Positions 11,060 through 39,488 of a stretch of DNA of 64,000 bases are shown piece after piece; within the stretch, counting starts at the first letter, position 1, and the number at the start of each line of letters is the position of its first letter. This DNA comes from Nanobdellota archaeon. GTDB lineage: Archaea; Nanobdellota; Nanobdellia; Woesearchaeales; UBA9642. Below the pieces are notes generated by a model that saw only the letters and a list, made by a program, of their open reading frames with translations, ran no database searches and was not told the origin of the DNA. The stretch covers positions 1 through 64,000 of the forward strand of contig JAKAKR010000008.1 of the NCBI GenBank assembly GCA_021813435.1, in the 5' to 3' direction. A program made the position numbers and the translations under genes.

Positions 11060-14000
11060 ATGTCTATTCAGCAAAAAAGGGGTCAGGTGACTATTATTGT
11101 CATTCTTGCAGTAGTGCTCTTGTTCATTGTTCTCTTCCTGCTCTTTATCCGTGCATCACTCATCAAAAAGCAGATCACTGCAGCAGCAGCGCAGGAGATT
11201 CATGATTATGCTGATCAGACTGCGATACGACAGTATGTGACGAGTTGTCTTGACGCCGTAAGCGATGAAGTCATGATCCGCAGTGCAATGCAGGGCGGAA
11301 TCCTTGATTTTCCGCCAGATGGTGAGAACAAGACCTATACTGCTTATTTTGATGAGATATACAATCGCAGCTTCAATGTGTCGATTGCTATCATTGACAA
11401 TTATGGTTGCCCGCTTGTCCGGCACCTGCCTCCGGATTACCCGTTTGAAAATACTACGCTCTCGACACTTGCACTCTATTATGACCGGATGTGCGGAACC
11501 ATAAGTCCGCTCGTCGCGTATAGTGGGTTTTTTGGATTGGACAATTATACGCGGCTCTGCGCCTGGAATGGTTCGAATCGTGTCGGGGTTACGGGCGGAA
11601 GATACTCGTATCAGAGTTGTATTCCCGGAACATATAATGATCCCGATACGCCCAGCATCCAGGATATGATGGAAAAAAATATCTCTGCAGAGATGGAAAA
11701 ATGTGTGAATGTGACGCTTATTCATGAACGATTCCCCTCGAATGTTTCCATGATCGCTGCCCCGCAGACCATAGTCACCTATGGAGAGACCGGGGTCACT
11801 ATCACGACTGCGTATCCGTTTCTTGTCACACTCAATAATCGCGAGCCAGTCGAGCGGATGATCAATTTTACAGTCACCCGCGATATCCCATACAAGCGGA
11901 TGTATAATTATGTGTTCCGACTCATCACTGCAGATGTGCAATTGTTTGATTTCAATAAGTTCTCGCAGCAGAATCTTGCAGGATACAATAATTATATTGT
12001 CAATAGGACAAGCATCCCTATCAACAATACGTTTGTTGATATCATCCACATCATCGATAATGGAACCATCATCCAGGGCAGACCATTCATGTTCAATGTC
12101 GCGATCTGGAACCGCAGGCCTGCATTGGACTATATGCATTCAAGTAATTCTCGGGAGTGGGATCTTGTCGGCATCGAGAACCAGACCTTGACATTGCGGC
12201 CCGAAGGGTATGATCCTGACGAGGACATCATATTCTACAATTATTCCCTCTGGTATGAAACATACAATGAAAGCTATGATTTCACCGGTTCCAAATGCAA
12301 GAATTTCAAGAATATCAACATCAACGATTTAAAGAGCTGCGTCAAGAGGGATAATCCGCCAACTATTGAGCCGCATAATTGGACGAATTCCACAGATTTC
12401 AAGGCCTCACACCAGAATGCAACTATTCTCTTGAAGAAGAGGGATATTGGGTACCATGAAGTGAATATCAGCATCTGGGATCGCGGATTATTGAAGGATT
12501 GGCAGCTTGTGCGCATACTCGTCATCGATAAGCCAGTCGCAAATGCGACAGGAAGAAATATTTATGACGATGTAAAACAAGAGATGGCAAGTTTTGAGGA
12601 CCCGTATATCCTGAATGGTTCACTCTCGCACGTCATCATCGGAGGATTCGGTCTATTTGTCTGGAATGACACGCGCGGAGATATACATGCAACAAAATAT
12701 TCATCTGGTCCAGACCCTTTTGTCTTATCCATACCGAATGAGTCCACATATCCGACAGTGACGACGTTTAACATGAAGAGTATTGTTGATGAACCATTTA
12801 AACGTCCGGAACAGTTTAAATCTACACAAACACAAAATCCAGAATACTCCGGGTATATCGATAATATCACCCTTACAGTGTTTGCAGCAGTCGGAGGGGT
12901 CGGGATAAGTACGAGCGATAACACCACAATCAGTGTGAATGTGACCCAATGCCTCCCGCATCGGAATAACACTGATCCGGCATTCCCTTACAATGCAAAT
13001 CCCGCAGACATCTATTCCTCACTCCAGGCAAATCACACCTGCTGCCTTTACACATACCAATACGACGCTGCAACAACACAATGCTACGAGAATATCAGTT
13101 ACGGCGGAAATAAAAGTTTTAAGGATTTATGGACTCCTGCGGGTGTTTCAACTGCACCATATCCTCCTAACGGCATACAAAATAGTCGCCGGCCAATCAT
13201 CACGTATGATTACAACGGAGACTCAAACACTACGCACAGCGGCGAGGCGTACAGTCTATACGACAACGATATCTACATGCGCACATTTGATAGGAATTGT
13301 TCTGGCGATCGCGGGAATATCTGCTCAGGAAACGCAACAGAAGTACGGACACTCATCGAGAAATGCAGGGATATCACGGAAAATCCTTCGGTATTTCAAG
13401 GAAGATGTTCAGGACCACCATTAACACAATATGGCGATGCAATAAATTATGACAATAAGAATGATGCACATTGCGTCAATTATTCTGGATTTACATTTGA
13501 ACAATTAACAAGTAATCAATCGAATAACGCCCCTAATTGCGTCAAGACAAGACAGAATGTTAATTGGCAATGCGCAGATATATCGGGGCGCTTTGATGGT
13601 AGCAATCCTAAACCGCTTGCATGCACAGGCGCATGCGATGGTCAAGGAATGTGCGTCGGAGATCCTAGTACTTGTAGATGCGAAAAAGCATGCGCACCTA
13701 ATGTTGTTGATGATTTCTGTGTCAATCAGCCTACATATAAAGATATCGGATGTCTACACAGCACTAACAACGTCCCAGATTTATGCAATGGATGTAAGTA
13801 TGTGCCCGGAGGCGGAAAGAACAAAAATGGTGTTATTGGTGCATGCTCAAATGATAATGGATGCCGTGCAAGCCGCGAATGTGCAGACAATAATAAGAAA
13901 CCTGGAGAAGCATTAACAGATGGAAGTGATGGGCAGTACTGTAATAATACATGTCAATTAAAGAGTTGTGATAATGGGTTAAAATATGATAGTTCAAATA

Positions 14001-14092
14001 GCAATTGTTATTCGAGTTGCGTAGAGAATGGAACTCAGGATAATTCTCGATGTGCTTCAGGAAGCTGCAAATCCGATGGATCTTGTTCTTAA
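11060..14092 (+). CDS. Giant pilin-anchored surface protein with cysteine-rich C terminus
   Basis: 1010 aa. The N terminus QKRGQVTIIVILAVVLLF is pilin-like: basic residues, G, then one long hydrophobic helix (about 10-31), as in archaeal class III signal peptides cut by a prepilin peptidase. The rest is extracellular in prediction, with many N-x-S/T sites and beta-rich, Ig-like stretches up to about residue 620. From about 640 it becomes dense in Cys (HTCCLYTY, then disintegrin-like runs such as CTGACDGQGMC and CRCEKAC), implying many disulfides. It opens a ~28-kb same-strand cluster. The last kilobase is richer in A+T than the first two. The GTG three bases upstream is an alternative start. 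Adhesion is plausible but not shown. Confidence 0.75.
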   Translation: MSIQQKRGQVTIIVILAVVLLFIVLFLLFIRASLIKKQITAAAAQEIHDYADQTAIRQYVTSCLDAVSDEVMIRSAMQGGILDFPPDGENKTYTAYFDEIYNRSFNVSIAIIDNYGCPLVRHLPPDYPFENTTLSTLALYYDRMCGTISPLVAYSGFFGLDNYTRLCAWNGSNRVGVTGGRYSYQSCIPGTYNDPDTPSIQDMMEKNISAEMEKCVNVTLIHERFPSNVSMIAAPQTIVTYGETGVTITTAYPFLVTLNNREPVERMINFTVTRDIPYKRMYNYVFRLITADVQLFDFNKFSQQNLAGYNNYIVNRTSIPINNTFVDIIHIIDNGTIIQGRPFMFNVAIWNRRPALDYMHSSNSREWDLVGIENQTLTLRPEGYDPDEDIIFYNYSLWYETYNESYDFTGSKCKNFKNININDLKSCVKRDNPPTIEPHNWTNSTDFKASHQNATILLKKRDIGYHEVNISIWDRGLLKDWQLVRILVIDKPVANATGRNIYDDVKQEMASFEDPYILNGSLSHVIIGGFGLFVWNDTRGDIHATKYSSGPDPFVLSIPNESTYPTVTTFNMKSIVDEPFKRPEQFKSTQTQNPEYSGYIDNITLTVFAAVGGVGISTSDNTTISVNVTQCLPHRNNTDPAFPYNANPADIYSSLQANHTCCLYTYQYDAATTQCYENISYGGNKSFKDLWTPAGVSTAPYPPNGIQNSRRPIITYDYNGDSNTTHSGEAYSLYDNDIYMRTFDRNCSGDRGNICSGNATEVRTLIEKCRDITENPSVFQGRCSGPPLTQYGDAINYDNKNDAHCVNYSGFTFEQLTSNQSNNAPNCVKTRQNVNWQCADISGRFDGSNPKPLACTGACDGQGMCVGDPSTCRCEKACAPNVVDDFCVNQPTYKDIGCLHSTNNVPDLCNGCKYVPGGGKNKNGVIGACSNDNGCRASRECADNNKKPGEALTDGSDGQYCNNTCQLKSCDNGLKYDSSNSNCYSSCVENGTQDNSRCASGSCKSDGSCS

Positions 14093-14142: not shown

Positions 14143-14172
14143 AAGATGGGGTATAAGAGGAAAAAGGTGGGT

Positions 14173-17100
14173 ATGGTGGATTTGATAAAGAAACGACTGT
14201 TCATATTCTTGGGAATCGTGCTAGTGCTCGCAGTGTTTGCAGTACATTATGCTGCAGCAGACTGCTGTCTTATTTTAGGTAATGGATGTTATAATTATGA
14301 TACGAACACATGTAAGTCTAATAATGGTATGAGTTTACCAATCAATCAGTGCCCTGATATCACTCCTCCTGTTACAGGTACTGATCAATATATTAAGATG
14401 TGCTCGTACTCTTGTTGTTGTAGTATTAATGATAATATCTCTATTTATGGTAAAAATCCAATAAATCAAAATGAAACCAAATGCATTAGTGACGGTGGAA
14501 AATTTATTTATGGATTAGATAAAAGCGCCTCATGCGATGTTATCTGCGGCAATCAACAAAAATATACTCTGAATATCAGCGTCAACGATACTGCAGGTAA
14601 CCCTATTAATGGTGCAACAATTACAGTAACAAGTAATCCCCGGCAGGGCAGTACAAATAGCATAACCCCTACAGGCGGAGGCAATTATTCGATTACAGAT
14701 CTTCCTCTCGGAACATCTATTATCCAAGTATCAAAAAAAGAGTGCCAGACAAGTACACAAGATAAACAGATCACAGGTCAAGATACGCCTACACTCTATG
14801 TCACATTGAATTGTACGCCATGCAGTTTAGTCGAATGGCCATGCACAGGAACAGCATATAGTGGAACAGCGACCATGAGTTGCCATGGAGAGACCATAAG
14901 TCAAACAGTCCAATGCACCCCACCAGATACCGCGCCAAAATGCAATGATGGAATATTTGAAAAAGGGGAATGGTGCGAAAAGATCGGTAATAACATTGTC
15001 AATAATTGTCCCATAAATCCTTATGATTCTACAGGAGCCAAATATGTCTGTAACGTGAATGACTGTACAAAATGCATTGTTCCCAATAATCAAAAGCTAC
15101 CGACTTGCGGTAATGGGAAGAAAGAAAGTGGTGAGCAATGCGACTTTGGTCAGACATCAAATTTCACAGAATGTTCAAACACTTCGATTGATGCATGCGA
15201 CACCGGCATCTGTCAATGCAAGCCGACAGGTCAGATTTGTGAGTGGAATTATACAGGACCGCCTTGTCCAACATCGCAGGCAGATGTCGATGCTGAAGAA
15301 GCGAACGGGCATCTGAAGCTACCCGCAGGATGTCTCGCAGGATTTATCGCGCCAAAACCTAATTTTATAGACATCCGTCAAGCGCATAATTGCGATCAGA
15401 ATACTGCTGTTGCAGGATCATGCGGCAATGGACTTGTCGAACGCAATTTAGGCGAACAATGCGACTGGAACATGAGCAAAAATCCTCCAACCACGAATGA
15501 TTCGACTGTCTGCGCAAATGTGTCATTAAAAGAAAACGGTTGTATCCTGAACTCCTGCCAATGCAAGCCAAACACGTATCACTGCGACTGGAATTGTCAA
15601 GATGTTGGCGTATGCGATGGTACTGTGCAATCAATCCGAAAGGTTTGCACTCCAAGCAAAGATCCAAATTGTGCAAAACCTGGCGCATATTACGATGCAA
15701 ATCCTGAAGGCATTATCCCTTGTAAAAATTTTAAAGGGTTATGCGGAAATGGAAAGCTCAATACTGGCGAGGATTGTGATTACAATGCAACGAGCGGAAA
15801 TTATACTCAAGGCAACTGCATTGCAAATCCAGATGCCTGCCAGAATTGTGCCTGCACTGCAAAACCACCAGCCCCGACAGATAATTGCGCGCAAGATCCC
15901 GGCAATATCTCACTGCAACCCATTGCTGCAACACGCGGAGTATTGAACCTGCAGCTCGGCTGGGCAACAAATAATTCCAACTGCAAAAATTATATCGATC
16001 ATTTCGAGATACTGCGCTGTACCAACACCAGCACTGCTTCATGCGATTCTACAACAATAGATACACTCAGTAATGTCATCAATGATTCTGTACCTAAAAA
16101 TATTTGGAAGTATAGTGATAATTCTAGAATCAGCGCTGATAAGGTATACTGTTATGCTGTAAAGACAGTGTTCAATGGTTCAGTTGCAGACGATAAGACC
16201 CCGCAGCTCAGCAATATGCAGTGCAAGTTCAGCGGCAATGCATCCTGCATGAACAATCAGATACCCTTACCTGACGGTGATTGTGTCAGCGGGCAATCAG
16301 CAGATCCTACTATTAAATGGGGTATACGCCAATGCGACGAGAATAACACCATAATAATTAAAGACTGTAGCAACGCGCAATATTGCGCCATGAGCAGCAA
16401 TGGCAATACTCCTCAATGCATGGACCAATCGGCATGTAATTCCTGCAATGGACTATTCGGATTCTCAATGTTTGGAACATACGGACTGACGTTTTTAGAT
16501 GCGGGCACGAAAACCAATGTCAAGTGTCCGAGCCTATTGCTCAAGACGAACTCTGCGACAGAGGAAGGATGCTTTATTGATTATAGCAAGAGCACTGTGG
16601 ACATGACCTATAGCTGCATTAATGTACAGAGTTGTTATGATTATAAGTCTGCAGCGACATGCCTGAATGATGCCTGCAGCGCATTCATCGACGCGTCAGG
16701 AAATACGACTTGTGAATGGGTGCCATACGGTGGAACATTCGATGTGTTCAATCGCGGGATCTGCAGGCCAAAGAACACGCTAACCCCGCAATGCGATCTC
16801 TGTAAAAATCCATCGTATAATCGCATCACACCAGAATGCACGCCAAGCACTTGCGCATTATTCGGCAAATGTTACGGCACTGCAAATAATTGCGCAAATC
16901 CTGGAGATATCGACTGCACAAGCTTCACGAACGAAAATGATTGTATCGGTGTTCCGGGTTCAAACAATCCCCCACAGAATATCACTGTTAATGTCACATG
17001 GGACGCAAGTACCGGCAAACCGAGAATGATTGACGGGAATAACGCTATCACTGATTATAGCAATGATTATACTGCGCAACATCATTTCGATTATCAAGCG

Positions 17101-18699
17101 CTCGGTATCTGTAAGTGGACCAATAATGCGTGCATCCGTGATACAAATGGCGACAATATTGATGATTGTATTAATCGAAAAAATTCTGCAGATAAACATG
17201 CCTGTGAGCGTGATATGGCAATACCGCAGACAACAATCCGTAATAAAAAACAGTATGCAGTGCTCATGGATCTTTCGAATGCAGTCAGCGTCACTAATCT
17301 AGGAACAAGTACGCTCCAAAATTGCAACAAATATCCCGCCTGTATTGAACGTTCCCAAAACAACAAAAATCTGAATGCAGCGTATCTCTATTATGCCATC
17401 GCGAATGCAACTGCGCCTGCAGCATACCCGCAGACACCACTGACTGTTTCAGGAACAGGCGCATTCCTCATCAATCTCTCGGCAATTCCTGAAATACAAC
17501 CATTGCGATCAGGACAGAACTATACCTTGTATTATTTTACTGAGAGTGCAGCGCACAATCTTGAGGGTGTCAAGCATTTCACCTTCACCCTTGACCGTGA
17601 TCCTCCAGAGATCAATATCTCATTTACCGAAAAGACCTTCCGCTATTTCAACAATGCGCCTTGGGCAACAAACCTTACGGTGACTGCAACACTCCTCAAT
17701 GACGAGCAGAGCCCGCCAGTCATCTGCAGCATCAAACTCGAGCCCGGAACATATCCTGGATGGGAGATCTTTGATCTTGACAACACAAAGCCCATGATCA
17801 GGCGCATGATGACTAAAGCAAATGATACGGTAAATACAGTATATCCCGGACTTATCGACAGCGATTATAATATCACGACCACCTGCAGTGATGATGCAGG
17901 AAATGTGTACACCAACACCACAATCATTACCATCGAGGCAAATAACCAGATTACCGGACCATCCCCGCGCGGCGGAGTCTACACTAATCTTACATTACCG
18001 CAGAATATCAGCTTCAGGACAAACATGACAAATAATACTGCAATCGAATGCAGGTATTCCGAAAATGCAAGCAAGCGATTGTTCACTGACATGAATGCAA
18101 GCAAGAGGTTCTATAACAGCTCATCAACAGACTGGTACCTGAACATGTCAGACATCATCCCGAAAGTCTCTGACTCAGGATTCTACCGCTACTTTATTGC
18201 ATGCAATTTCACCGGCGGCGTTATTGTCGAAGATGTACCGGGCGATGAGATCTACTTTGCACTGGATAATCTCCCGCCGATCACTACGCTCATCAATAAT
18301 AAGACCCGCAAGGAATATATTGCCAATGCCTCTGACAATACGACCAATAATCTTACACTCATCCTGCGCGCAGATGATCTGCCGGCAAACTTTAGTTATC
18401 AGTCGATGAGTCGCACCAATTTCGGGGTCAATACCACATATTGGTGCATGGAGAACGCCAGCGACACTATGACTTGCAATGATACGATAGCAAACTACGC
18501 GCCAGTCACAGATCCAATCCAACTCGATTATATCAATGACGATAATGGGCTTGCAGCACAGTATGGACGAAACCCGCGCATCTGTTATTATGCAACAGAC
18601 TGGGGTAATAACACCGCGCCCATCACTTGCGTCCAGACTATCATCAAGAACACGCTCTTCAACAGTCCAACCATCATAATCACCGAAGGCAGCCGTTAG
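14173..18699 (+). CDS. Giant secreted cysteine-rich repeat protein
   Basis: 1508 aa from the ATG at 14173, which lies 3 bases after GGTGG and fits the TATA position. A Sec-type signal peptide (KKRLFIFLGIVLVLAVFAV...AAA) precedes the mature start DCC. Residues about 125-205 look like a carboxypeptidase-regulatory/Ig-like beta domain (NISVNDTAGNPINGATITV). Then come repeats of the CGNGxxExGEQCD type known from myxobacterial cysteine-rich repeats (near 312, 418 and 525). An FN3-like stretch and further Cys-rich and Ig-like sections follow (for example ITTTCSDDAGNVYTNTTI). N-glycosylation sequons are abundant. No C-terminal anchor is evident. The gene is followed after 7 bases by another giant protein, so the pair is likely co-transcribed and may interact at the cell surface. 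Confidence 0.75.
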   Translation: MVDLIKKRLFIFLGIVLVLAVFAVHYAAADCCLILGNGCYNYDTNTCKSNNGMSLPINQCPDITPPVTGTDQYIKMCSYSCCCSINDNISIYGKNPINQNETKCISDGGKFIYGLDKSASCDVICGNQQKYTLNISVNDTAGNPINGATITVTSNPRQGSTNSITPTGGGNYSITDLPLGTSIIQVSKKECQTSTQDKQITGQDTPTLYVTLNCTPCSLVEWPCTGTAYSGTATMSCHGETISQTVQCTPPDTAPKCNDGIFEKGEWCEKIGNNIVNNCPINPYDSTGAKYVCNVNDCTKCIVPNNQKLPTCGNGKKESGEQCDFGQTSNFTECSNTSIDACDTGICQCKPTGQICEWNYTGPPCPTSQADVDAEEANGHLKLPAGCLAGFIAPKPNFIDIRQAHNCDQNTAVAGSCGNGLVERNLGEQCDWNMSKNPPTTNDSTVCANVSLKENGCILNSCQCKPNTYHCDWNCQDVGVCDGTVQSIRKVCTPSKDPNCAKPGAYYDANPEGIIPCKNFKGLCGNGKLNTGEDCDYNATSGNYTQGNCIANPDACQNCACTAKPPAPTDNCAQDPGNISLQPIAATRGVLNLQLGWATNNSNCKNYIDHFEILRCTNTSTASCDSTTIDTLSNVINDSVPKNIWKYSDNSRISADKVYCYAVKTVFNGSVADDKTPQLSNMQCKFSGNASCMNNQIPLPDGDCVSGQSADPTIKWGIRQCDENNTIIIKDCSNAQYCAMSSNGNTPQCMDQSACNSCNGLFGFSMFGTYGLTFLDAGTKTNVKCPSLLLKTNSATEEGCFIDYSKSTVDMTYSCINVQSCYDYKSAATCLNDACSAFIDASGNTTCEWVPYGGTFDVFNRGICRPKNTLTPQCDLCKNPSYNRITPECTPSTCALFGKCYGTANNCANPGDIDCTSFTNENDCIGVPGSNNPPQNITVNVTWDASTGKPRMIDGNNAITDYSNDYTAQHHFDYQALGICKWTNNACIRDTNGDNIDDCINRKNSADKHACERDMAIPQTTIRNKKQYAVLMDLSNAVSVTNLGTSTLQNCNKYPACIERSQNNKNLNAAYLYYAIANATAPAAYPQTPLTVSGTGAFLINLSAIPEIQPLRSGQNYTLYYFTESAAHNLEGVKHFTFTLDRDPPEINISFTEKTFRYFNNAPWATNLTVTATLLNDEQSPPVICSIKLEPGTYPGWEIFDLDNTKPMIRRMMTKANDTVNTVYPGLIDSDYNITTTCSDDAGNVYTNTTIITIEANNQITGPSPRGGVYTNLTLPQNISFRTNMTNNTAIECRYSENASKRLFTDMNASKRFYNSSSTDWYLNMSDIIPKVSDSGFYRYFIACNFTGGVIVEDVPGDEIYFALDNLPPITTLINNKTRKEYIANASDNTTNNLTLILRADDLPANFSYQSMSRTNFGVNTTYWCMENASDTMTCNDTIANYAPVTDPIQLDYINDDNGLAAQYGRNPRICYYATDWGNNTAPITCVQTIIKNTLFNSPTIIITEGSR

Positions 18700-18706: not shown

Positions 18707-21700
18707 ATGACGAAAATGAAAAAGAGGTATGCACAGATTATCGGAGTAGTGATAGTGATAGCAGCACTCATTGCACTTATCCCGATGGTCCGTGCAATAA
18801 ACACTTACACGACTTCTGAAATCATGATCAATGTCAGCTATGACAAGCTGCCGGTCACCATCATATCACGAAATCTTACCAGCAGCACAAATCCCGGACT
18901 GGCGTTTGCACTGTATAATCTCACGACAGAATACAATGCGATGAATTTTAGTTACAGCACCTCATTTCTTCCGAATGGAAATTATAAGTTCAGGGTCTGC
19001 GCGCATGATACTGATTACAATATCGCGTGTGGAACGCAGGACTTTATTGTCAATCATCCCAGCTTCAATATCACCATCATCGAGCCCAAGGTCGGAATAT
19101 CGACAAAACCCGTCTATGATATTCTTGTCAGCAGTATTTATGATGCAAACTGCAGGCTTACAGGAAGTGTCAGTGGCAGCGCGTCAATCATAAGCAGCAA
19201 GAAGAATGCATACGCGACGCTTACACCCTATGCGTTTGACGTCACCGGATATACGAGTCACGCAAAATATAATTTTGATGCGAGCGGCTTTGATCTTAAC
19301 AAGGGAAATTATGGTGTTGTCTGGGTGGTCTGCCAGCTCAATAACAGCGATGCAAATCTGAGTCTTGAGAGCAGTTATGACGCTAAACAGATTTATGTAG
19401 GGTATGATGCGACTCCTCCAGTCATCACTGTTGCTGCAAATCCTAATCCAGTCACCAGCCCAAGCGATCTCTATACTGACCTCACAGTCACTTCTGATGA
19501 TGCCGTAGTCTGCAGGATTGACCATGACGGGGACGCTGCAATCCACTCCTGGTTCAATGGAGTCAATGACAGCATATTCTCCACCTATAATAGAACAAAC
19601 ACCATCCATCTTGATTATAATGGGTTGCTCCTCACTAACCAGCAATACGCACTCACCTATACAGTCACCTGTACTAATCTTGCACAATTGCAGAGCACTG
19701 CAACCTATACGGTCAATTATGTGATTGCAAACAGTCTTGCGATACAATCCGCAATGTCAAATTATACATTCAGCCAGCCCGTCAGTTATACGATTACCAC
19801 AAATATGAATGCTGATTCCTGCAGCATCAATGTGAATGGCTCGACCACATGGCTGCCCATGGTCTCGACAAATAAGCGCAATTTCACTGCGGCAGTGCCG
19901 CTGGGCGCAGGAAATAACATCATCAGCGTGCAATGTGATTCTTCAGTGCCGGGCATTATGCAACGCCACGCCACTGCGCAATACAGGATGGTCTATGATC
20001 GCGCGCCGCCTGCTGCAAGTATCAGCACGAGCAGCAAGACCTGCAGTCTCACCAATATCACATTCCACCTTGATGCCAATGATTCTGACTCGCCGATAAC
20101 GCGCATAGACTATACGGTCACTGGACCAGGCACATTCGCGTATACTGAAAGCGACACGAGCGTCTCAAGTAATGTCATCTCGCAATCTGTAAGTCTTCCT
20201 TCGCCAAGCCTTGCGCCATTATTCACCATCATTCCCGGCGTATCATACTTAGTCAGTGTCAATGTATCCTCTGCCTCTGGACGATCAACAGTCGTACAAA
20301 AGACTCTTACTGGTTCAGTTGCAACTGATGCTGCGTGTCCGGTCTGCGGCGATGGCAAACAGGCAGATCCTGAAGAGTGCGACTATAGTCCGACTGATCC
20401 TAATGCATATTATTTCAAGGCAGGCAAGAATTCATGCACCAATTATCTCTATCAGGATGCAGCGACAAAACAGTGGCTGCCCTATGTCGGAGGGATACTG
20501 CGCTGCAACAAGGACTGCAAATCAGTCAATACCAGCGATTGTAATCCTGCAAAAGTCGAGTATTGCGGGGATAATGTGACGAACAATTTCCCGAATGAAC
20601 AATGCGATGGCAATCCTAACCCTGCGCAATCTAATGTCAAGTTTGACTGGGGAAACATTCCTGCAACAAAGGACTTGGGATGCCAGGCATTCGGCTTTGC
20701 AGGCGGAACACTGTCCTGTAATCCTCCCGGGACTTTGCGGCAATGCCACTTCAACACCACGCAATGCATTGGCAACGCGCAGCCTTCAACCTGTAAGCTC
20801 GATGATAATAATTATGGACCAGGAGAACAATGCACATTCACTGAGACTGCAAAATCCTCACTGCTCAATAAACTCTCCTGCAATTCATTCAATGCAAAAT
20901 TCCAGGGCGTACTCTCCTGTAATGATCCCATCAACTGCGAAATTGATATCAGCAAGTGCACGATGTGCGGCAACGGGATTGTAGAATCCGGAGAGCAGTG
21001 CGAGATCGGCAATACCACGCAATGTACAACACTCTCCAACGCCACCATAACCTATGTGAATGGCACTGCAAGCTGCAATGCTGATTGCACATGGAATACT
21101 GCATCCTGCGAGCTTCCAGGCGTCTGTGGCGATGGCAGGGTCAACAGCAATGAAGCATGCGATTATAATGCGACAACAGGACGCGTCAGGTTCCGTTCAG
21201 GACAGGATCAATGCAATGATTATTATGCGAATGCTGCAAACAACCAAAAATTTGTCGATGGAGTACTGGGATGCGCAGCAGATTGCAGTGCAGTCCTGAC
21301 CAGTAATTGCGTAGCCAATTATACGACAGGATTCTGCGGCAACAGCAAGATCGATAATTATCCGAATGAGCAATGCGATGGAAATACCTGGGGCAGCATC
21401 ACTTCCTGCAAGGATTTGGGATTTGATGGCGGAACACTTTCCTGCAATCAACCTTATAGCACTGAAGAGTGCATGTTCAATACCAGTCGGTGCACAAAGA
21501 ATGGCGTCCCTGCAGGTGGGAGTTGTGGTGACGGGTATCTCAACCCGGGAGAGCAATGCATCCCGAATGAGAATTTCACTGCATACGGCATATTCTGCAA
21601 ATCATTTGACTCATTCATCAACGGTACACTGAATTGTAATGCAAATTGCCGGATTGATATCAGTGGATGCAGGCGAGCGAATGTATGCGGCGATGGCGTC

Positions 21701-29905: not shown

Positions 29906-30160
29906 ATGTCCCGCTTCCATAAAAAGGGTGTTGAATTGACGATGAATACAGTCATCATCGCAGTGATGGTGCTCCTGGTCCTACTGGTCATTGCATTCAT
30001 ATTTCTTGGGGGAACAAAATCATGGATCAAGGGAACAAACTGCGCTGACAAAGGTGGGGAATGCCTTGCTGATTGCGCAGCAGGACAGAGTGCTACACCC
30101 TGGTCCTGCGATCAGAAGAACACCAAATGTTGCGTATCAATCATCAACACCGGCACATAG
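29906..30160 (+). CDS. Pilin-like protein with defensin-like six-cysteine domain, 84 aa
   Basis: Lead FHKKGVELTMNTVIIAVMVL is a close match to the previous protein, including the V-E-x-x-x-N order, so the two are recent paralogues. The helix is followed by a GGTKSWIKG linker and C-x6-C-x3-C-x10-C-x6-CC, the closest of the four to the beta-defensin spacing. It ends a few residues later in IINTGT, as the previous one ends ILSTG. The gene starts 26 bases after its neighbour without a new promoter. Confidence 0.68.
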   Translation: MSRFHKKGVELTMNTVIIAVMVLLVLLVIAFIFLGGTKSWIKGTNCADKGGECLADCAAGQSATPWSCDQKNTKCCVSIINTGT

Positions 30161-31386: not shown

Positions 31387-32099
31387 GATGGAGTAATAAG
31401 AAAGGGGATGGCGATTCATATGGTATTATGGAAATAATAATTATCGGACTTATTATTGCAGGAATAATCCTCTTTGCAGTACTTAAGGCAAATGCTAACG
31501 CCAAGTCTGAGACAAAAAAACTCACAAGTTGCTCAGGACCTTATGGCGCTGGATCCTGTAAGTCAAGTTGCACCGCTGATGAGATATCATTGCCCAATTG
31601 GGGCGAATGCAAAGCGCCGACAAGCACATGCTGTATTGCAAAGGACCTTGGCACATCGAACGTGGATAATTATGGGGCGACAAGCGAGTACTCTTTCAGT
31701 GTGGAATGGATTGGGATGAATGCAGTCCATGGATGTACAGAGGATAAGAACAATGGCGTATGGAATTGCGCTGCAGGAACCACTGTTGAATTCTATGTCA
31801 AGGTCAAAAATACCGGAACAAAAACTGTTGATGTCTTTGGTAATCCTGAAGTCAAACAGGATGAGCGCAGTACAATGGTCTGGCTTTCAGGCGATAAGAA
31901 CCCGCAGACTGTTGCTGCGGGCGGCGAGACAGATCATATCGCTGCAGGAACACTCACCATCGACAAGAATGCGCAAAAGTATCGCGTATATGCCGCAGCC
32001 AAATGTTTAAGCAAAGAATGCACTGATGCTGCAGGAGCAGACGGTGTTTTTGTCATCAATAAGAATAATTGGATTGATATCTATGTCACGAGCCCCTAA
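31383..32099 (+). CDS. Pilin-like protein with defensin-like domain and Ig-like domain, 238 aa
   Basis: ATGA overlap with the previous gene. The lead RWSNKKGDGDSYGIMEIIII precedes a helix and the unit C-x8-C-x3-C-x12-C-x6-CC (near 53-89). The second half (YSFSVEWIGM to WIDIYVTSP) resembles the ectodomain of the protein at 28876-29499, with shared features C-x-A-G-x-x-V-x-F-Y-V and a C-x4-C pair. It joins the two ectodomain types of the neighbourhood in one chain. The next gene starts inside its last codons (32083). Confidence 0.68.
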   Translation: MRWSNKKGDGDSYGIMEIIIIGLIIAGIILFAVLKANANAKSETKKLTSCSGPYGAGSCKSSCTADEISLPNWGECKAPTSTCCIAKDLGTSNVDNYGATSEYSFSVEWIGMNAVHGCTEDKNNGVWNCAAGTTVEFYVKVKNTGTKTVDVFGNPEVKQDERSTMVWLSGDKNPQTVAAGGETDHIAAGTLTIDKNAQKYRVYAAAKCLSKECTDAAGADGVFVINKNNWIDIYVTSP

Positions 32100-33306
32100 C
32101 CTGTTCTCTCAAAAAAAAGGCCAGCAGATACTCAACCGTCAGCTTACAGAGACGATTATGGCAGCAATATTCATCCTGCTCATTATCGCGCTTATTGTTG
32201 CATTCTGGAATATACTTGTGCCGAGCGCTGACAAGGCCTCGCGCCAGAGCTTTGATACCCTTGCAACACTCATCGCGCTCAAAGATAAATCGCTCAAGTC
32301 ATATGATTCAGCAAAGTATACTGTCTATCTCAAGGACAGCTATCAGATTGTGATGTTTGGCATTGATGTCAATGCAGCAGAGTGCGGTTCGCGTCCTGCA
32401 ACCATCATGACGATGAGCGGTCCCACACTTGATCCGACCAAAGAAAAGTATACTATTCCTAAACCCTCTGATTGCATCCAAAACCGCCGCTGTATGTGCT
32501 TATATAAGGATGATCCTGCAGATACCGGCAATGTTGTGGAATGCAAGAATTTTGACGCAAATGAGCGGTTCAGTGTCGGTGCATTCGAATTGAATGACGA
32601 AAAATGCAAAAAAGTCTCTAATTTCAATAATCTCATCATTGCAATGAAGAGCGCCAAGGATGCAAACAGCCAGACCATCAGGACATTATATGTCTGGCAG
32701 AGTACCGATGCACATATTGCAGAAGATAAACAGAATAGTGCCGCAGTATGCCCCAGCACACCTAATAAACCAAGACCCTGCGATGGACAAAGCGACGGTT
32801 CGCCTGCGCCCTCAACTGTTGCATGGCCCTGCGGCAGTGAAACAATCGGGGACGCGCGATGCACACTCAGTGCTGATCAAAAATCCTGCGAGATCAAGTG
32901 CGCGCACACTATTAAATGCAGTGATATCAAGACCTGTAATGATTATAACACACTTGCGGGAGAAGGCGGCCCGCCAGGATTCTATCTTACGGCAGAAAGT
33001 CTCGGATATAATCCCTGCAAGAACGATGCAACATCCTGTAATGTGAATCAGGGAAAAAGCTGCGTTCTCAATCCACAGCCGGGACAGGTATGCAAGCCAA
33101 GCGCTACAAATGAATGCCTTCAAGCATTACAGGATAATATGGATACGTGTAAAGTGGAGTATACTACCGCAACTGATAAGTATACGCGAATCATCACTGC
33201 AATCGGCCCTGATACTTCAAGCACGAATGGCATCTGCACTGCAATAACGAGTAATTATCTCGTTCCGATGTATACCTGTGCTGCACCGGCAAGCGCCACG
33301 CCATAG
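32083..33306 (+). CDS. Pilin-like Cys-rich protein, 407 aa
   Basis: ATG 32083 lies 17 bases inside the previous gene. The lead SQKKGQQILNRQLTETIMAA and helix end near residue 42. The ectodomain starts with a helical part then a Cys-dense region (RRCMCLYK, ECKNF, KCKKVS) and a Ser/Pro/Gly-rich stretch with regular cysteines (CDGQSDGSPAPST, WPCGSETI, SCEIKCAHTIKC, KTCNDY). Its end is again Cys-rich (MYTCAAPAS). The repeated disulfide-rich design fits an extracellular spot. No family recognised. Confidence 0.65.
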   Translation: MSRAPNLFSQKKGQQILNRQLTETIMAAIFILLIIALIVAFWNILVPSADKASRQSFDTLATLIALKDKSLKSYDSAKYTVYLKDSYQIVMFGIDVNAAECGSRPATIMTMSGPTLDPTKEKYTIPKPSDCIQNRRCMCLYKDDPADTGNVVECKNFDANERFSVGAFELNDEKCKKVSNFNNLIIAMKSAKDANSQTIRTLYVWQSTDAHIAEDKQNSAAVCPSTPNKPRPCDGQSDGSPAPSTVAWPCGSETIGDARCTLSADQKSCEIKCAHTIKCSDIKTCNDYNTLAGEGGPPGFYLTAESLGYNPCKNDATSCNVNQGKSCVLNPQPGQVCKPSATNECLQALQDNMDTCKVEYTTATDKYTRIITAIGPDTSSTNGICTAITSNYLVPMYTCAAPASATP

Positions 33307-33404: not shown

Positions 33405-34364
33405 ATGTTCAACAAAAATAAAAGAGGGATGGAGGATAAGCTCTATTTTGTCATCTGGGAGCTTATCGCTATAGGGATGGTGACAGTCATCCTTGTTCTT
33501 GCAGTACGCGGCATCGCGCAGAATTCTTCTTACTGGAAAAAATATTACTCTACAGATCTTGGACTCATGGCAGACATTGCAAACATCAACCAAGGGGATT
33601 TTGTCGTCAATTACCAACTGAAAAAGAGTGCGGATCTCCCAAGTGCAAAACCGCCAGAGATCGTACTCACCCCAACGCGTGTTGAAGTGTATGATGCGCC
33701 GAAAGAAGAGTCCAAAGTACCCTACACCTGGCCGTACGCCCGCTCAAGAAGTGTTGAATCAGTCAATAGCTCAACTATCGCAGAATTGATCGTCATGTCA
33801 AAGATTGACACCATCTTTCGCATCGATACCAGCGCGCCCACTGATGCTATGACCTGTCCTGCATTCGATACCGCGCAAGCGCTTGATGCAAAGACCGCAT
33901 TCAACATCATCACTGTGGATGATCAGACGCGACCCGCAGCAACTGCGCTTGAAAGCATCATGAAAACAAAAGGGTATGGAAGTGACCCTGGAGCAAAGAC
34001 ACTCACTACATTCATCCTTGCCACGTCGCATACAGATTCTGTACTTATCATATATCCTGCAGATACACATATGAGCATTGCAGGAAAAATGTCCTGTCTT
34101 ATCGCCCAGGAGTTCAATGGCGCAAATGGACCGCATGCACGCACAGTTACTTATGTGCCCGATCAAAATGATAATAATCAGACTGCTCTTGATGCAGCGC
34201 AACAACAGGTTATAGATACGTATACGGCCGCAGTCTCGAGTGATCCGCAACGTTCCGGAGAGTTCTGGGTACTCGTCGCGTTACCAAACAATCCTGCAAT
34301 AGACCCCGGAACTGTGGCCAAGAGCATCAGCACAGCGCTGGAAAAATACTATATCGCGCCCTAG
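33405..34364 (+). CDS. Pilin-like protein, 319 aa
   Basis: The ATG at 33405 gives the signal MFNKNKRGMEDKLYFVIWEL with Glu close to the cut, then a helix to about residue 34. The ectodomain is an alpha/beta domain with only two Cys, unlike its Cys-rich neighbours. Strands alternate with helices (for example LTTFILATSHTDSVLIIYPAD, and FWVLVALPNNPAI near the end), which recalls a Rossmann-like or peptidoglycan-associated fold, but no catalytic motif is clear. It begins a new transcription unit with the following pilin-like genes. Confidence 0.65.
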   Translation: MFNKNKRGMEDKLYFVIWELIAIGMVTVILVLAVRGIAQNSSYWKKYYSTDLGLMADIANINQGDFVVNYQLKKSADLPSAKPPEIVLTPTRVEVYDAPKEESKVPYTWPYARSRSVESVNSSTIAELIVMSKIDTIFRIDTSAPTDAMTCPAFDTAQALDAKTAFNIITVDDQTRPAATALESIMKTKGYGSDPGAKTLTTFILATSHTDSVLIIYPADTHMSIAGKMSCLIAQEFNGANGPHARTVTYVPDQNDNNQTALDAAQQQVIDTYTAAVSSDPQRSGEFWVLVALPNNPAIDPGTVAKSISTALEKYYIAP

Positions 34365-34395: not shown

Positions 34396-34965
34396 ATGAA
34401 GAAAAAACCATTATTCCGACGGAATCTTGCACGAAAAGGACAAGTCAAATACATGCTTGAAAATGCGTTCAGGATATTTTTTCTTATGGCAGCGCTTCTT
34501 GCATTCTTCCTGCTCATCAGTTATTATATCAACAATCGGATTGACACGCGACTAATCCAGGCAGAAACGCTTGCAAACCGGATCGTATACTCAGACACCA
34601 TCATGCAGCAGGATCCGACACTATTTAGGACCTATGCCGGAATTGTCAATCTTGAAAAGATCAATGATACACTCATCGAGCAATCACTATCCTATACGCC
34701 GACCCGCCATGCGGCAGCAAAAATAAAGATTATCAGCAAGCCGCAAAGCACCGGTACAGAAGTATTCATCAAAGAGGCATATCTTAACCGGAAACAATTC
34801 AATGACTTTTATGTGATGATCCGGAGCGGGATACAGGGATCAGAATCGGCAATTCAGGCCGTGAAAAAATTCCCTGTCACCTGTTACGATAAAGACATCA
34901 GCCCTCCTGCCTCTCCGTATTACTATTGCACATTGGTTGTTGAAGTAATGATTCCTAACACATAA
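34396..34965 (+). CDS. Pilin-like protein, 189 aa
   Basis: The lead RRNLARKGQVKYMLENAFRI has the R-K-G-Q pattern with Glu eight residues after G; the helix runs to about residue 45. The ectodomain is short, with beta and helical segments and two Cys near the end (VTCYDK, YYCTLV). The remaining ectodomain (TRLIQAETLANRIVYSD, RTYAGIVNL) resembles the FlaG/pilin-type globular head in size only. It lies 31 bases after the previous stop in the same unit. Confidence 0.62.
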   Translation: MKKKPLFRRNLARKGQVKYMLENAFRIFFLMAALLAFFLLISYYINNRIDTRLIQAETLANRIVYSDTIMQQDPTLFRTYAGIVNLEKINDTLIEQSLSYTPTRHAAAKIKIISKPQSTGTEVFIKEAYLNRKQFNDFYVMIRSGIQGSESAIQAVKKFPVTCYDKDISPPASPYYYCTLVVEVMIPNT

Positions 34966-35009: not shown

Positions 35010-35618
35010 ATGAAACAAATGATACACACCTCATTCAAGAAAATACGTCGCAAAAAGCGTGGAGAGAACCTTCTTGTAGATCTTTGGGTCATCATCGCAT
35101 TCGTCATTGTACTTATTGTAGTGCTCCTGCTCTTTATCGCAACAAAAAAGCAAGTCAATCAGGGGATAGTGCAGGACTTCCAATCCAAAGACGCAGCATT
35201 CATGCTCGACGCGTATTTACGCGCCCCCGATCTTATCAATGGAAATACTGTGACCGGAAAGACCATTGCAACAATCATCGCTGAAGATGCTGCGAATGGC
35301 AATTTTACCCGCACTAAAGGATTGACTAATTATTATTTCAGTGGCATCACCACCTACAGCGGAACACTGGAAAACGATTATTATACTGCAAAACCCATCA
35401 GTGTCATCAAGGTATGTATTTATGACGAAAAGGACAGTTTTTTAGCAGGGTATGAGATAGATCCTCAGGCGCGCACCATCAGTGACCTGCATTTCTATTG
35501 CGGAACAGTAGCGCAGAGCAGTGAGTATACCTATACCCTTGCAAAAACGAATATCCCTGCATTTGAGAATAATCTTTTTGTGGAACTCGTCATAAAACAG
35601 AAGATCAACAGTAAATGA
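35010..35618 (+). CDS. Pilin-like protein, 202 aa
   Basis: A 17-residue basic lead ends in RRKKRGENLLVDLWVIIAFV, again with Glu straight after the cut; the helix runs to about residue 45. The soluble head starts with a helix (VQDFQSKDAAFMLDAYLRAP) and becomes beta-rich. Two Cys (KVCIYDE and HFYCGTV) could form one disulfide. The gene lies 44 bases after its neighbour and 27 bases before the wall-hydrolase gene, so it is probably co-transcribed with it. Confidence 0.62.
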   Translation: MKQMIHTSFKKIRRKKRGENLLVDLWVIIAFVIVLIVVLLLFIATKKQVNQGIVQDFQSKDAAFMLDAYLRAPDLINGNTVTGKTIATIIAEDAANGNFTRTKGLTNYYFSGITTYSGTLENDYYTAKPISVIKVCIYDEKDSFLAGYEIDPQARTISDLHFYCGTVAQSSEYTYTLAKTNIPAFENNLFVELVIKQKINSK

Positions 35619-35645: not shown

Positions 35646-38600
35646 ATGATACCGAAAAACAAATTTATTCGTGGACAAAAAGCGCAGATATTCATCCTAT
35701 TCACTGCAGTAGCAGTAACTATCTCGCTCTTCACTGCATTCATCCTGCTTGATCATTATTACGCTGACAAAAGCACAGATGAACATTTCGGATCCTATGA
35801 ATCAGGGATGATCAATGCAATCATTGACGGGGATCGCGCATTCATCTCCATTGATCAGGCTGCAGGGTATGCTGCAAGTGACGCCATGAGCGCATTCAGC
35901 AGGAACGGTGGAGTGGATATTGCGCCGGAAAATGGCGAGGACACTGCTGGACCCAAATGCGGCACTTATGTATATAATCTTTGGAACAATGAACAGGAAG
36001 ATTGTTATCCAATGTCGCAGCAAACATTCGCATCATATCTTGATACTGCAATGAACACGCGTCTTGGCGCGCTACCGGATAAGACACTGCACAAAGAACT
36101 CAGCCACAGCATCATTTATGAACCGACCGTGAACAGTACGACAATCTGGGCTATCACTGCAGACAAACTGGATTTTTATATATTCAAAAATAATAATTAT
36201 AAGGATAACACTGATATTCAAAAATATCTCTCAACCAAAAGCGTCTATGGTGGAGATTTTATCTGGCCAGTACCAGGGCATTATACTGTCAGTAGTTGTT
36301 TCGGGTATCGTGGCACTGGGACCGGCGGGAACGCAAATCATGGAGGGATTGACATCCCTGCACCGCCCGGAACACCTGTTGTTGCAGCAGCGGATGGCAC
36401 CGTAGCGGATTTTCTTCCCAACTACAACGGGATCATCATTGATCATGGCGGGATACGCACTATTTATTTACATATGAGTAAAGTTGATGTACAAAAAGAT
36501 GACACTGTTACGCAAGGGCAAAAGATTGGCGAGGTTGGCGGTAAGGGACCACTCGGCGCAAATCAGTATGCAGACCATCTCCACTTTGAAGTATCGCCAA
36601 AAGAGATCGGTACTGCACTCCAGTTCCAGGGTGTTGCTGCGACAAGCGTCAGCGGCGGCCGGACTGACATTAATCCTATCTGCATCTTTCCTGCAGAATA
36701 TTTCTCTCAAAACCATATCACACTGACTGTTGGAGATAATGAAGGATGCAAGACCATTTGCGATGGTAAGAACTGCGCTGATCCATCGTCCTGCGCAACC
36801 GATGGCACCCGATGCCTCTATAAGTTCTGCGGAGTCTACACGCAACTCATGCCGCAAAATACCGTATGCCAGACTACTGACAATACAGACTGGAAGGTGA
36901 GCAATCTTATGGTCTCATCCAATGCAGTGAGCGGCGATCAGACACTCAAGATCACTACAACGATTGAGAATACAGGCAAGGAGTGCATCAGCGTGCAGTC
37001 CTGGCCGATCATCACTGATACTGCAACGGGAAAAGAATATACTATCCTTGATAAAACGCTGAATACTGCATATACAAAGAGTTCTATAGATCAATATACC
37101 AATATTGACGTAGAATGCATATTCAGCACTGATCCCGCGGCAGTACAAGCAGGGCAACGCGCACGCAAATGCGTACTTCCTGCGCCAAGCAATGATCAGG
37201 TCATCACTTACAAGATTCATGCGTCAGCAGTCGACGCCAAAACCCGCGTGGACACTTCATTTAATAGAGACCAGACTGTACGCGTCACCAAACCACTTGC
37301 AGGAACAACCGGCGATACCGCAGGAGCTGCCGCATCGAATGCTGCGCCAACAGTGACACTGACCAAAACCCAGCAGGGGCAATTTGACAAAACAAAAAAG
37401 AATCTTGAAACCTTGGGACTTATCAATTATATTGATAAAATCTGTCAGGAGAATAGCGTCCCCACACCGATCATGCTCGGGCTCATCACCCAGGAATCTG
37501 GAGGAAACCCTGACGCAAAATCCAAGGACAAGAACGGCAATGTTATCGCCGTGGGCATGACGCAGGTCGTCAAGAGCTTACATAAAGCAGAAATATCAAG
37601 TGAATGCAATTATGACGCATTTGATTCAGACGCACAATGCCAAGTCCGCGTCGGTGTAAGAATTATGAAGGGGCTATATATCCAATATGGCGCAAAAAAT
37701 AATAATTACAAATGCGCAGCATACTGCGATCCCAATAATCACTGCCAGGATGCAATTGATGCAACATATACGAGTTGGGAGGCAGCGCTCCGGGCATACA
37801 ATGGTTTAGGATGCAAGGGATATCCTGATTTCACCTATGTCGACAAAGTCAAGACCTACGCGCAGGCATGGGGCTATGCAGGTGCAAGCATCACCAAATA
37901 TCAGGAAGTGTCGCGCGATGAAGTAGAGTCCAAAGGAATTCTCGGAACATATTCTATCAAGCCATCATTCAAGACAACGATCAATTTTGATATGCGCCTC
38001 ATTGATGAACTCAAGACATTTGCCAAAGATATCAATAGCGCATGCAGCGGCAGCGATCAATTGCCCCGTGACTGCGTCAATACGCAAGTTGCAGCATTCA
38101 ATAAGCGCATTACACCGCAATACGCGCAAGCAGGATGGAATGTCCAGCTCGATACCTATTGTGAGGCAGGAGATGCCGCTGCTGTTGCTGGCGCAGTCGA
38201 ACATCTTGATCAATGTGCAGATGCGACACAGACTGGCTGCTGGTGCGATCTGAATTCCACAAGCGCGCTACCAATCACACTCCAAGGATCGACAGATGGG
38301 ACACAATTCCTTTTTACTGATGCTGCAGGAGCGCAATCATCGTTTGGCACAGCGCAAATCATTACTGACGAGAATAATAAGAATATTGGCACTAAAAATA
38401 TTGCACTCACCGACATTGTACTCTACAAAACAGGAGAAAACACGTATCAACTGAAGTCAAAGTCCGCAGGCGATACTCATTATTGCGCGCAGACTGAAAA
38501 TCAGGTACGGCTCTGTCTCAAAACTAATTATACGTATGACGCGCTTGAAAAAGATAAGAGGGTAATGCGCGTCGGTAAAGAAAATATCACTATCAAATTC

Positions 38601-39488
38601 GCGATTACAGTGCGCGATAACATCCCGCCTGCGCCGGTGACTGGCTTTGAACTCACCGATGAACCGCACGCCAAGGACGCGCTCATGATCGTGTGGAACA
38701 AAAATCCTGAAAAGGATGTTGTGGAGTATAAGATTTATTTTGCAGATCATGAGACAGACATCACTGGAAAGAATATGAGCGCGCTACAGAAAACTATCCC
38801 GATAGACTCCGTAAACGTTCTTAATCATTATGAAATCTATGATGACATCGTCTATACTGGAGATCCGTACTGTATCAATGCAACGACTGCAGACGGGCAG
38901 CCCTACTGCGTCTTCAAGTATCCGGCAACAAAGGATGGCAAGGGAATGTGGATTACGCTTGACCCGAATGTAACTTATTATCTTTCTGCGTCAAAAAAAT
39001 TCATTCGCATCATCTCTGCAAGCGCCGAGAATATGCTTAAAGAGAATAAGGAAAAGGCTATTCTTATTACTGCAATTGATTCTGCAGGCAATGAGATCGG
39101 AACAGATCAGGCAGTGTCTGGAAAGAATATGCGCGCAATCACAGTGAAGGATCTTCGCGAACCCGGACTTGTTGTGCGACCGCTCGTCCAGATGACAACT
39201 GATGATACTACCCGGCGCTTGAAGAAAACATTGAGTTGGCTTCCTGTAAAGATCATGATCGATGGATCAAATAGGGATACGGGAAGTGTGGATCATTATG
39301 ATATCTATAATCAATGGACGAGCTGCACTGGAGATTTCTGCATGGTGCAGCCGCCGTATGCGCGTATCGCATCCACGACCCAAACCAGTATTGATATCGA
39401 TGTCACTGATGACCCTTCTGCAAAACTCGGCGTTGTTGCAATCGATGACAACGGCAAGGGATATTACGCAGGATTTGTACCCACATAA
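35646..39488 (+). CDS. Pilin-anchored M23 endopeptidase and lytic transglycosylase fusion
   Basis: 1280 aa. The N terminus KFIRGQKAQIFILFTAVAVT gives a pilin-like anchor. Residues about 200-330 form an M23 (LytM/peptidase) domain: the zinc site NHGGIDIPAPPGTPV (near 231-236) and HLHFEV (near 310), plus GYRGTGTGG and ADGTVADF, all typical. Residues about 570-730 are an SLT-type lytic transglycosylase: IMLGLITQESGGNPDAKSK with catalytic Glu near 617, followed by AVGMTQV and WEAALRAYNGLG. Further on lie a Cys-rich part and FN3-like sections (PPAPVTGFELTDEP near 996, then VEYKIYFADHE). These enzymes cut peptide bridges and glycan strands of murein, which archaea do not make, so the target is probably a bacterial wall. 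All key residues are present. Very likely a genuine, active-looking protein. Confidence 0.85.
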   Translation: MIPKNKFIRGQKAQIFILFTAVAVTISLFTAFILLDHYYADKSTDEHFGSYESGMINAIIDGDRAFISIDQAAGYAASDAMSAFSRNGGVDIAPENGEDTAGPKCGTYVYNLWNNEQEDCYPMSQQTFASYLDTAMNTRLGALPDKTLHKELSHSIIYEPTVNSTTIWAITADKLDFYIFKNNNYKDNTDIQKYLSTKSVYGGDFIWPVPGHYTVSSCFGYRGTGTGGNANHGGIDIPAPPGTPVVAAADGTVADFLPNYNGIIIDHGGIRTIYLHMSKVDVQKDDTVTQGQKIGEVGGKGPLGANQYADHLHFEVSPKEIGTALQFQGVAATSVSGGRTDINPICIFPAEYFSQNHITLTVGDNEGCKTICDGKNCADPSSCATDGTRCLYKFCGVYTQLMPQNTVCQTTDNTDWKVSNLMVSSNAVSGDQTLKITTTIENTGKECISVQSWPIITDTATGKEYTILDKTLNTAYTKSSIDQYTNIDVECIFSTDPAAVQAGQRARKCVLPAPSNDQVITYKIHASAVDAKTRVDTSFNRDQTVRVTKPLAGTTGDTAGAAASNAAPTVTLTKTQQGQFDKTKKNLETLGLINYIDKICQENSVPTPIMLGLITQESGGNPDAKSKDKNGNVIAVGMTQVVKSLHKAEISSECNYDAFDSDAQCQVRVGVRIMKGLYIQYGAKNNNYKCAAYCDPNNHCQDAIDATYTSWEAALRAYNGLGCKGYPDFTYVDKVKTYAQAWGYAGASITKYQEVSRDEVESKGILGTYSIKPSFKTTINFDMRLIDELKTFAKDINSACSGSDQLPRDCVNTQVAAFNKRITPQYAQAGWNVQLDTYCEAGDAAAVAGAVEHLDQCADATQTGCWCDLNSTSALPITLQGSTDGTQFLFTDAAGAQSSFGTAQIITDENNKNIGTKNIALTDIVLYKTGENTYQLKSKSAGDTHYCAQTENQVRLCLKTNYTYDALEKDKRVMRVGKENITIKFAITVRDNIPPAPVTGFELTDEPHAKDALMIVWNKNPEKDVVEYKIYFADHETDITGKNMSALQKTIPIDSVNVLNHYEIYDDIVYTGDPYCINATTADGQPYCVFKYPATKDGKGMWITLDPNVTYYLSASKKFIRIISASAENMLKENKEKAILITAIDSAGNEIGTDQAVSGKNMRAITVKDLREPGLVVRPLVQMTTDDTTRRLKKTLSWLPVKIMIDGSNRDTGSVDHYDIYNQWTSCTGDFCMVQPPYARIASTTQTSIDIDVTDDPSAKLGVVAIDDNGKGYYAGFVPT

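Follow-up and report, generated by a model that had tools for sequence, protein, structure and literature searches.

The first 64,000 nucleotides of contig C10 of a Nanobdellota archaeon genome (G000, 1.41 Mb and 96% complete; this whole stretch, G000:C10:1-64000, is referred to here as the window) contain an array of 21 consecutive plus-strand genes, c01 to c21, within positions 11057-39488. We hypothesise, with a probability of roughly one half, that the products of these genes are the pilin-like subunits, and the giant secreted proteins that accompany them, of a lineage-specific machine belonging to the type IV filament superfamily. That it belongs to this superfamily is well supported. It is a more tentative proposal that the machine is a new branch of the superfamily, in which a motor composed of a divergent ATPase and a tandem platform would serve about 18 pilin-like subunits that carry swapped murein hydrolases to breach bacterial walls. 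The array is found across the order and its hydrolase is variable, two observations that go beyond a first-pass annotation of the same DNA; the reading given in that annotation is, as a whole, partly supported. Each of the three outcomes that it named as counting against it was looked for, and none was found.

The listing of open reading frames (ORFs) confirms the 21 consecutive genes that had been reported. Eighteen of them, of at least 60 residues, were in the first ORF list, to which 26619-26810, 28736-28879 and 29906-30160 were added. Gene starts were picked by eye wherever the first start codon sits upstream of a class III signal peptide site. Four junctions, with internal ATG starts chosen near the site, overlap by 4 nt (at 24423, 26037, 28876 and about 31383).

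Eighteen of the 21 genes, the number originally claimed, have a class III site, [KR][GA], directly before a single hydrophobic helix. Those that do not are the genes at 14146 and 18707, which have the only two Sec type I-like signals in the array, and a gene at 26619 for a small transmembrane (TM) protein. Under a strict scripted rule, 17/21 genes of the array have the site, compared with 6/112 of the other genes of C10:1-124 kb (Fisher 4e-13); if only genes with a hydrophobic N-terminus are counted, the figures are 17/20 and 6/29 (1e-5). Extra basic residues are the sole reason why the gene at 34396 does not pass the strict rule, and several of the six positives outside the array are members of a conventional type IV pilus (T4P) locus discussed below.

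The site is kept in most orthologues of c05 (15/18), c06 (17/19), c07 (17/18), c10 (23/29), c18 (27/27), c20 (24/24) and c21 (29/34), and retention is lowest, among the well-sampled pilin-like families, in c19 (19/30). A control in which the residues before the hydrophobic helix were permuted yields the site in 13-31%, below the orthologue rates. It is never found in orthologues of c02, and rarely in those of c03. Position +1 is mostly Q in the orthologues of c01, c04, c06 and c07. Acidic residues are common at +3 in those of c05 (80%) and c07 (94%), and in c06 at +6 (82%).

AlphaFold2 models of two of the 18 pilin-like proteins, c05 (pLDDT 84) and c10 (pLDDT 76), have continuous N-terminal helices, at residues 11-64 and 7-61 respectively, followed by an ectodomain with β-strands. 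Both proteins are thus predicted to have the build of a pilin, with a helix of 54-55 residues plus an ectodomain. The best candidates for the main subunit are c13 and c14, because they are small (84-86 residues here) and multicopy, with 53 members in 26 arrays, often in tandem. They could be a major pilin, and their pattern matches that of the small major pilins with multiple paralogues found in other archaea (PMC4858521).

The diversity of the ectodomains stands in part as first described. The enzymatic domains (M23 and SLT, in c21) are real, Cys-rich sequences are found in about half of the array genes, and the Ig-like matches are weak, comprising one CarboxypepD_reg domain and Big-type matches under the cut-off. 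For most of the array proteins, the Pfam names obtained were sub-threshold matches to unrelated membrane families, which were judged to be chance. The array proteins scanned against Pfam gave no match to archaellin and none to a solute-binding domain, and the array is therefore classed neither as an archaellum nor as a Sulfolobus-type bindosome.

Conservation was analysed in 60 relatives by direct search, in 33 array loci that were read, and in a class sample of 281 genomes, each at least 80% complete and 77 of them from the same order; counts for the class sample were taken by reading printed tables, and its genomes are mostly draft assemblies. Families of the array are present in 32 of the 33 loci, from across the order. 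By family, c19 and c21 were found in 30 loci, c18 in 29, c20 in 27, c13/c14 in 26, c10 in 24 and c05 in 18, many of the absences arising because the contig or stretch ends there. The common gene order is c01-c02-c03, c04-c07, c09/c10, copies of c13/c14, and c17-c21; in many genomes, from many families of the order, RPA, SpoIIM and RadA then follow. The best conserved marker, c05, is present in 199/281 genomes of the class and in 70/77 of the same order, and c19 alone finds relatives in 27 of the 60 genomes. This strong synteny across the order supports the original proposal that the genes form one assembly programme. In G003 (L027-L028), c01-c03 are encoded on the other strand from c09-c21, which they precede by about 8 kb on the upstream side, and c04-c07 were not found within the stretch examined.

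The syntenic orthologues of c03 are 929-5637 residues long and all have a C-terminal TM segment, with a cytoplasmic tail that is charged; in G001, G005 and G046 the tail of the window's c03 can be recognised. The orthologue in G001 (L029:236-17149), at 5637 residues, has an N-terminal signal as well as the C-terminal TM segment.

The last gene, c21, carries an M23 peptidase domain and an SLT lytic transglycosylase domain, both with catalytic-type residues (Table 1), and is predicted to be a murein hydrolase. The NCBIfam matches of domains of this type are to bacterial cell-wall enzymes. Of 30 arrays, 21 encode a recognised hydrolase, either in c21 itself or in a paralogue beside it; a few of these matches are weak. 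The types are M23, SLT, Amidase_2, NlpC/P60, glucosaminidase and a weak VanY. A search with c21 among named organisms gave only three short partial matches, in bacterial records. Within the genus to which G000 belongs the domains interchange at approximately residues 230-400: G003, like G000, has M23 plus SLT, G001 has Amidase_2 (residues 233-405), and in G002 the NlpC/P60 and SLT matches are both weak. NlpC/P60 is also found in two further members of the family, G004 and G005, with a weak glucosaminidase in addition in G005. Elsewhere in the order, the last subunit contains M23 in G009, G015, G039, G041 and, weakly, G057; SLT in G011, G016, G046, G047, G052 and, weakly, G014; M23 plus SLT in G006; and a weak VanY/M15 in G010. 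The M23 of G050 is in c21 and its SLT in the next gene, and the SLT of G018 is in a downstream paralogue. Since congeners exchange the type of hydrolase but keep the N-terminal part, the target probably varies, and may be bacterial prey or partners.

A comparison by eye of the positions listed for the class sample shows M23 or SLT matches on the strand of c05, no more than about 20 kb downstream of it, for at least 11 of the order's genomes and two from other orders (G105 and G209). Other orders of the class have very large SLT proteins (about 2000-2700 residues), perhaps fam00969-like. A positional link between these and c05 was considered and rejected, as they are not adjacent in G137, G128 or G172.

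No Mur ligase match was found in the archaeon's own genome, which makes action on a murein wall of its own unlikely; among the relatives there is mostly no match or one, and only G010 has three. The suggestion of a contact or attack organelle made in the first-pass annotation gains support from the swapping of hydrolases in c21, and we infer, from the sequences, that the machine may attack the walls of bacteria.

As first stated, the window contains neither an ATPase nor a prepilin peptidase, the T2SSE and prepilin peptidase matches of the genome all being outside it, and the view that the export machinery is elsewhere is borne out. An A24 prepilin peptidase is encoded at C13:36963-37316 (E 2.7e-15), and the enzyme is present in 58/60 relatives and in 75/77 genomes of the order in the class sample. 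T2SSE ATPases are located on C14, C10 and C16, none linked to the array, and PF00482 platforms on C10 and C16. A further T2SSE match, C9:71812, was rejected as a motor because it is a PIN/KH protein, as are some of the T2SSE matches present in 60/60 relatives. The C10 genes form a conventional T4P locus (G000:C10:90501-101878, L024), on the same contig as the array and about 50 kb downstream of it. It comprises a QAAMEFLMTYGWA pilin at 90501-90977, more pilins with IEYL/IEFL motifs, a PilB3_C-matching ATPase and platform genes, with the motor at 97.9-101.9 kb; a second ATPase/platform set is at C16:44-47 kb.

A clear PF00482 platform is absent from 29 of the 77 genomes of the order, 26 having none and three a single sub-cut-off match, and 28 of these 29 have the A24 peptidase. 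In 11 genomes read there is a divergent pair, consisting of a T2SSE ATPase of 756-775 residues and a membrane protein of 714-764 residues with 6-8 TM segments, adjacent or one gene apart. The pair is found in platform-negative genomes too (G014, G017, G024, G029, G037, G039 and G044), for which reason the idea that the array runs without any T4P motor was dropped; in G012 it was not within the stretch examined. Mean column identity is 69% for the ATPase and 60% for the membrane protein, far above that of c05 (30%), c10 (21%) or c21 (11%). The profile of the ATPase matches GspE 2oap (1.6e-33), CpaF (1.5e-28) and FlaI. That of the membrane protein matches TadC-type platforms (hhalign 91%, 1.1e-6), and in one member the first half has a sub-threshold match to PF00482 (E=0.8), which fits a tandem platform. 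The pair at C14:988-5634 is likely to be the motor of the array, on the basis of co-conservation rather than linkage.

Beside the pair, several genomes have three adjacent proteins with 4-5 TM segments (about 170-215 residues) and a motif like ILPFLLIFTIVFAILEKTKVLG, and in the same neighbourhood a 200-residue soluble protein and a coiled-coil protein whose FlaC-like matches are weak. These are possible further motor parts.

The hypothesis has several points to its disadvantage. The array and the C14-type motor were never found adjacent, the assignment of the C14 membrane protein as a platform rests on a profile match of 128 columns, and the genome's own two conventional T4P ATPase/platform sets could also serve the array. 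In nine of the 30 arrays (G012, G013, G017, G019, G036, G037, G042, G044 and G045), no recognised hydrolase was found in c21. Finally, a fold search of the PDB with the c05 and c10 models gave no match at E<=0.001, so their ectodomains have no assignment to any known family of pilins; the best matches were low-score tRNA synthetases, which we read as spurious.

The alternative that survives best, although we consider it unlikely, is that the array is the minor-pilin or adhesin set of an ordinary T4P, assembled by the conventional motor on C10 or C16. In keeping with this, the genome has a classic QAAMEFLMTYGWA pilin as well as its two ATPase/platform sets, and in archaea a pilin set often lies apart from the ATPase/TadC modules (PMC4858521). 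However, c05 is kept in 28 of the 29 genomes of the order that lack a clear platform, and is no rarer there than in the platform-positive genomes (42/48). In addition G044 and G024, each in three contigs, suggest an array accompanied only by a C14-type motor.

It is also rather improbable that the genes encode a static envelope complex, of membrane-anchored proteins that are processed at class III sites and never polymerised, together with giant Cys-rich coat proteins. The array has no classic major pilin and is unlinked to any motor, its ectodomains are very diverse, and c03 is a giant receptor-like protein with a C-terminal TM segment, all of which would suit such a complex. Against this, an acidic residue near the mature N-terminus and a long N-terminal helix typify subunits that pack into a helical core, and a GspE/TadC-type motor is retained in the platform-negative relatives.

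A pseudopilus for DNA uptake or gene transfer is very unlikely. It is suggested by the location in many genomes of RPA after c21, with RadA a few genes on, but in G006 and G009 a full-length RPA match is on a contig other than that of the array, and this neighbourhood may therefore be ordinary chromosomal order; nor would hydrolase swapping be expected. Least probable of all is that the hydrolases remodel the archaeon's own envelope for passage of the structure, as M23 and SLT domains do in bacterial secretion systems, because, for all that the NCBIfam matches are to bacterial cell-wall enzymes, a genome with no Mur ligase match is not expected to make peptidoglycan, and a self-wall role does not predict that the domain type varies between congeners.

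For the lineage-specific filament-superfamily machine that we favour, the following mechanism can be proposed. Sec would insert the subunits N-in/C-out, and the A24 peptidase would trim them after [KR][GAS]. Assembly into a filament, pseudopilus or spike would then be the work of the ATPase (GspE/CpaF-like, about 760 residues) and the tandem TadC-like platform (about 735 residues) on C14, both unlinked to the array. The repeated small c13/c14 would make up most of the structure and c04-c07 and c18-c20 its conserved core. The giant transmembrane protein c03 would act as a receptor or adhesin, and c21 would set a peptidoglycan hydrolase on the structure. Probably it is the walls of bacterial partners or prey, themselves variable, that would be opened, to allow attachment, feeding or entry.

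This machine would have much in common with archaeal T4P (PMC4858521, PMC6668835), namely class III signals, an A24 peptidase, helix-plus-ectodomain subunits, a GspE/CpaF/FlaI-type ATPase and a TadC-type platform, and separation of the pilin set from the motor is known in archaea. It differs from T4P, the type II secretion system, the archaellum, Tad and Com in several ways. A single conserved array brings together about 18 pilin-like ectodomains that are unrelated, accompanied by giant Cys-rich proteins; one pilin-like subunit is fused to murein hydrolases that are interchangeable; and the C14 platform is divergent enough to escape PF00482.

That no known set is made up in this way is a fair claim against the literature compared, although in the DPANN lineages of small-genome archaea islands of clustered dark-matter proteins with signal peptides have been read as diverse pilins (PMC6393860). 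Those islands include FlaI/TadC motor genes, whereas the motor of the present array lies elsewhere, and the portion of that paper available to us does not describe a wall hydrolase or order-wide conservation. Wall attack has been proposed for murein transglycosylases of Woesearchaeota and Pacearchaeota (module 98/fam00969, PMC8204110; 'vampiristic' metagenome-assembled genomes, PMC9723730). The likeness is in the extracellular murein-degrading domains of small-genome archaea and the proposed contact with bacteria, but these enzymes are reported as isolated proteins, and pilins or class III signals are not mentioned in the sections of those papers available. Archaeal peptidoglycan hydrolases, according to the accessible text of PMC12352652, kill bacteria; M23-type and other murein hydrolases are described there as frequent in Nanoarchaeota and as proposed weapons. 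The enzymes detailed in that text are from Halobacteria, and it does not describe a pilin array.

Table 1 Genes of the array, hydrolase domains of c21, and examples of the small-TM-gene neighbourhood beside the ATPase/platform pair. A slash marks the class III site.
Feature	Position	Strand	N-terminal site	Description
c01	11060-14092	+	KRG/QVTIIVIL	Large Cys-rich pilin-like (ORF); orthologues in 7 arrays, Q at +1 in 6/7
c02	14146-18699	+		Giant Cys-rich secreted, Sec type I-like signal; PF13620 CarboxypepD_reg 1.6e-9; Cys-rich repeats myxo_disulf_rpt
c03	18707-23689	+		Giant receptor-like; Sec signal, Cys-rich repeats (DUF4215-like), C-terminal TM at about residue 1335, cytoplasmic tail of about 300 residues
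c04	23926-24426	+	IRG/QIIGQVFIYIMV	Pilin-like; orthologues in 17 arrays
c05	24423-25487	+	KRG/AIELQFNWIFVL	Pilin-like; best conserved marker; invariant Cys in alignment
c06	25507-26040	+	RRA/QIQSVETIAVV	Pilin-like; ORF from 25417; Q at +1 in 16/17
c07	26037-26594	+	RKG/QMEAFGLAVIV	Pilin-like; Q at +1 in 16/17
c08	26697-26810	+		Small single-TM protein without class III site; ORF from 26619; 4 arrays
c09	26832-27614	+	KRG/LEGNLTN	Pilin-like; c10 paralogue by alignment
c10	27616-28506	+	RKA/QDKLIV	Pilin-like; invariant Cys (alignment); ORF from 27604
c11	28736-28879	+	KKG/GEESRFVNY	Pilin-like, 47 residues
c12	28876-29499	+	KRG/TGLGTI	Pilin-like; 3 arrays
c13	29619-29879	+	KKG/VEMSLNVIII	Small pilin-like; candidate main subunit
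c14	29906-30160	+	KKG/VELTMNTVII	c13 paralogue
c15	30169-31386	+	KKG/IWSDLKN	Cys-rich pilin-like; ORF from 30073
c16	31383-32099	+	KKG/DGDSYGIME	Cys-rich pilin-like; ORF from 31341; 7 arrays
c17	32083-33306	+	KKG/QQILNRQL	Cys-rich pilin-like; ORF from 32026; 19 arrays
c18	33405-34364	+	KRG/MEDKLYFV	Pilin-like; ORF from 33387; 29 arrays
c19	34396-34965	+	RKG/QVKYMLEN	Pilin-like; 27/60 relatives by direct search, 30 arrays
c20	35010-35618	+	KRG/ENLLVDLWV	Pilin-like; 27 arrays
c21	35646-39488	+		Pilin-like N-terminus plus predicted murein hydrolase domains; 30 arrays
c21 M23 peptidase domain	36336-36602	+		Residues 231-318; PF01551 7e-22; metal ligands HxxxD (HGGID) and HxH (HLH)
c21 SLT lytic transglycosylase domain	37428-37802	+		Residues 595-719; PF01464 9e-9; catalytic-type ES motif QESGGNPDAKS read in translation
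Small-TM-gene neighbourhood	L095:12657-14388			Example
Small-TM-gene neighbourhood	L101:12868-14754			Example
Small-TM-gene neighbourhood	L103:7031-8627			Example

Outside the array, the window encodes matches to RadA, RPA, an ERCC4-domain helicase and an archaeal/eukaryotic-type primase, which identify the DNA as archaeal; the small size of the genome would suit a DPANN lineage. Rfam and tRNA scans of the whole window found nothing. Between RPA and SpoIIM, at 41301-43525, a ferric reductase-like membrane protein adjoins an ApbE family gene, a pair not seen at this position in the relatives read. A DnaG with a bacterial-type CHC2 zinc finger and a DNAG_N domain (1600-3660) overlaps an 801-residue RNase_H_2-domain gene (3572-5977), and a protein at 58847-60598 has both PriS- and PriL-type primase matches.

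The ways in which uncultured small-genome archaea, the DPANN lineages for example, touch and exploit their partners are largely unknown. The array ties bacterial-wall enzymes, so far reported as isolated proteins, to a machine, and supplies candidate pilins for the secretion ATPases of nanoarchaea, which include a clade whose cognate pilins could not be found (PMC4858521). It provides a gene set to seek in co-cultures and environmental proteomes, and makes the question of whether these archaea attack bacteria directly testable. It may be this array that lets them attack or feed on bacteria.

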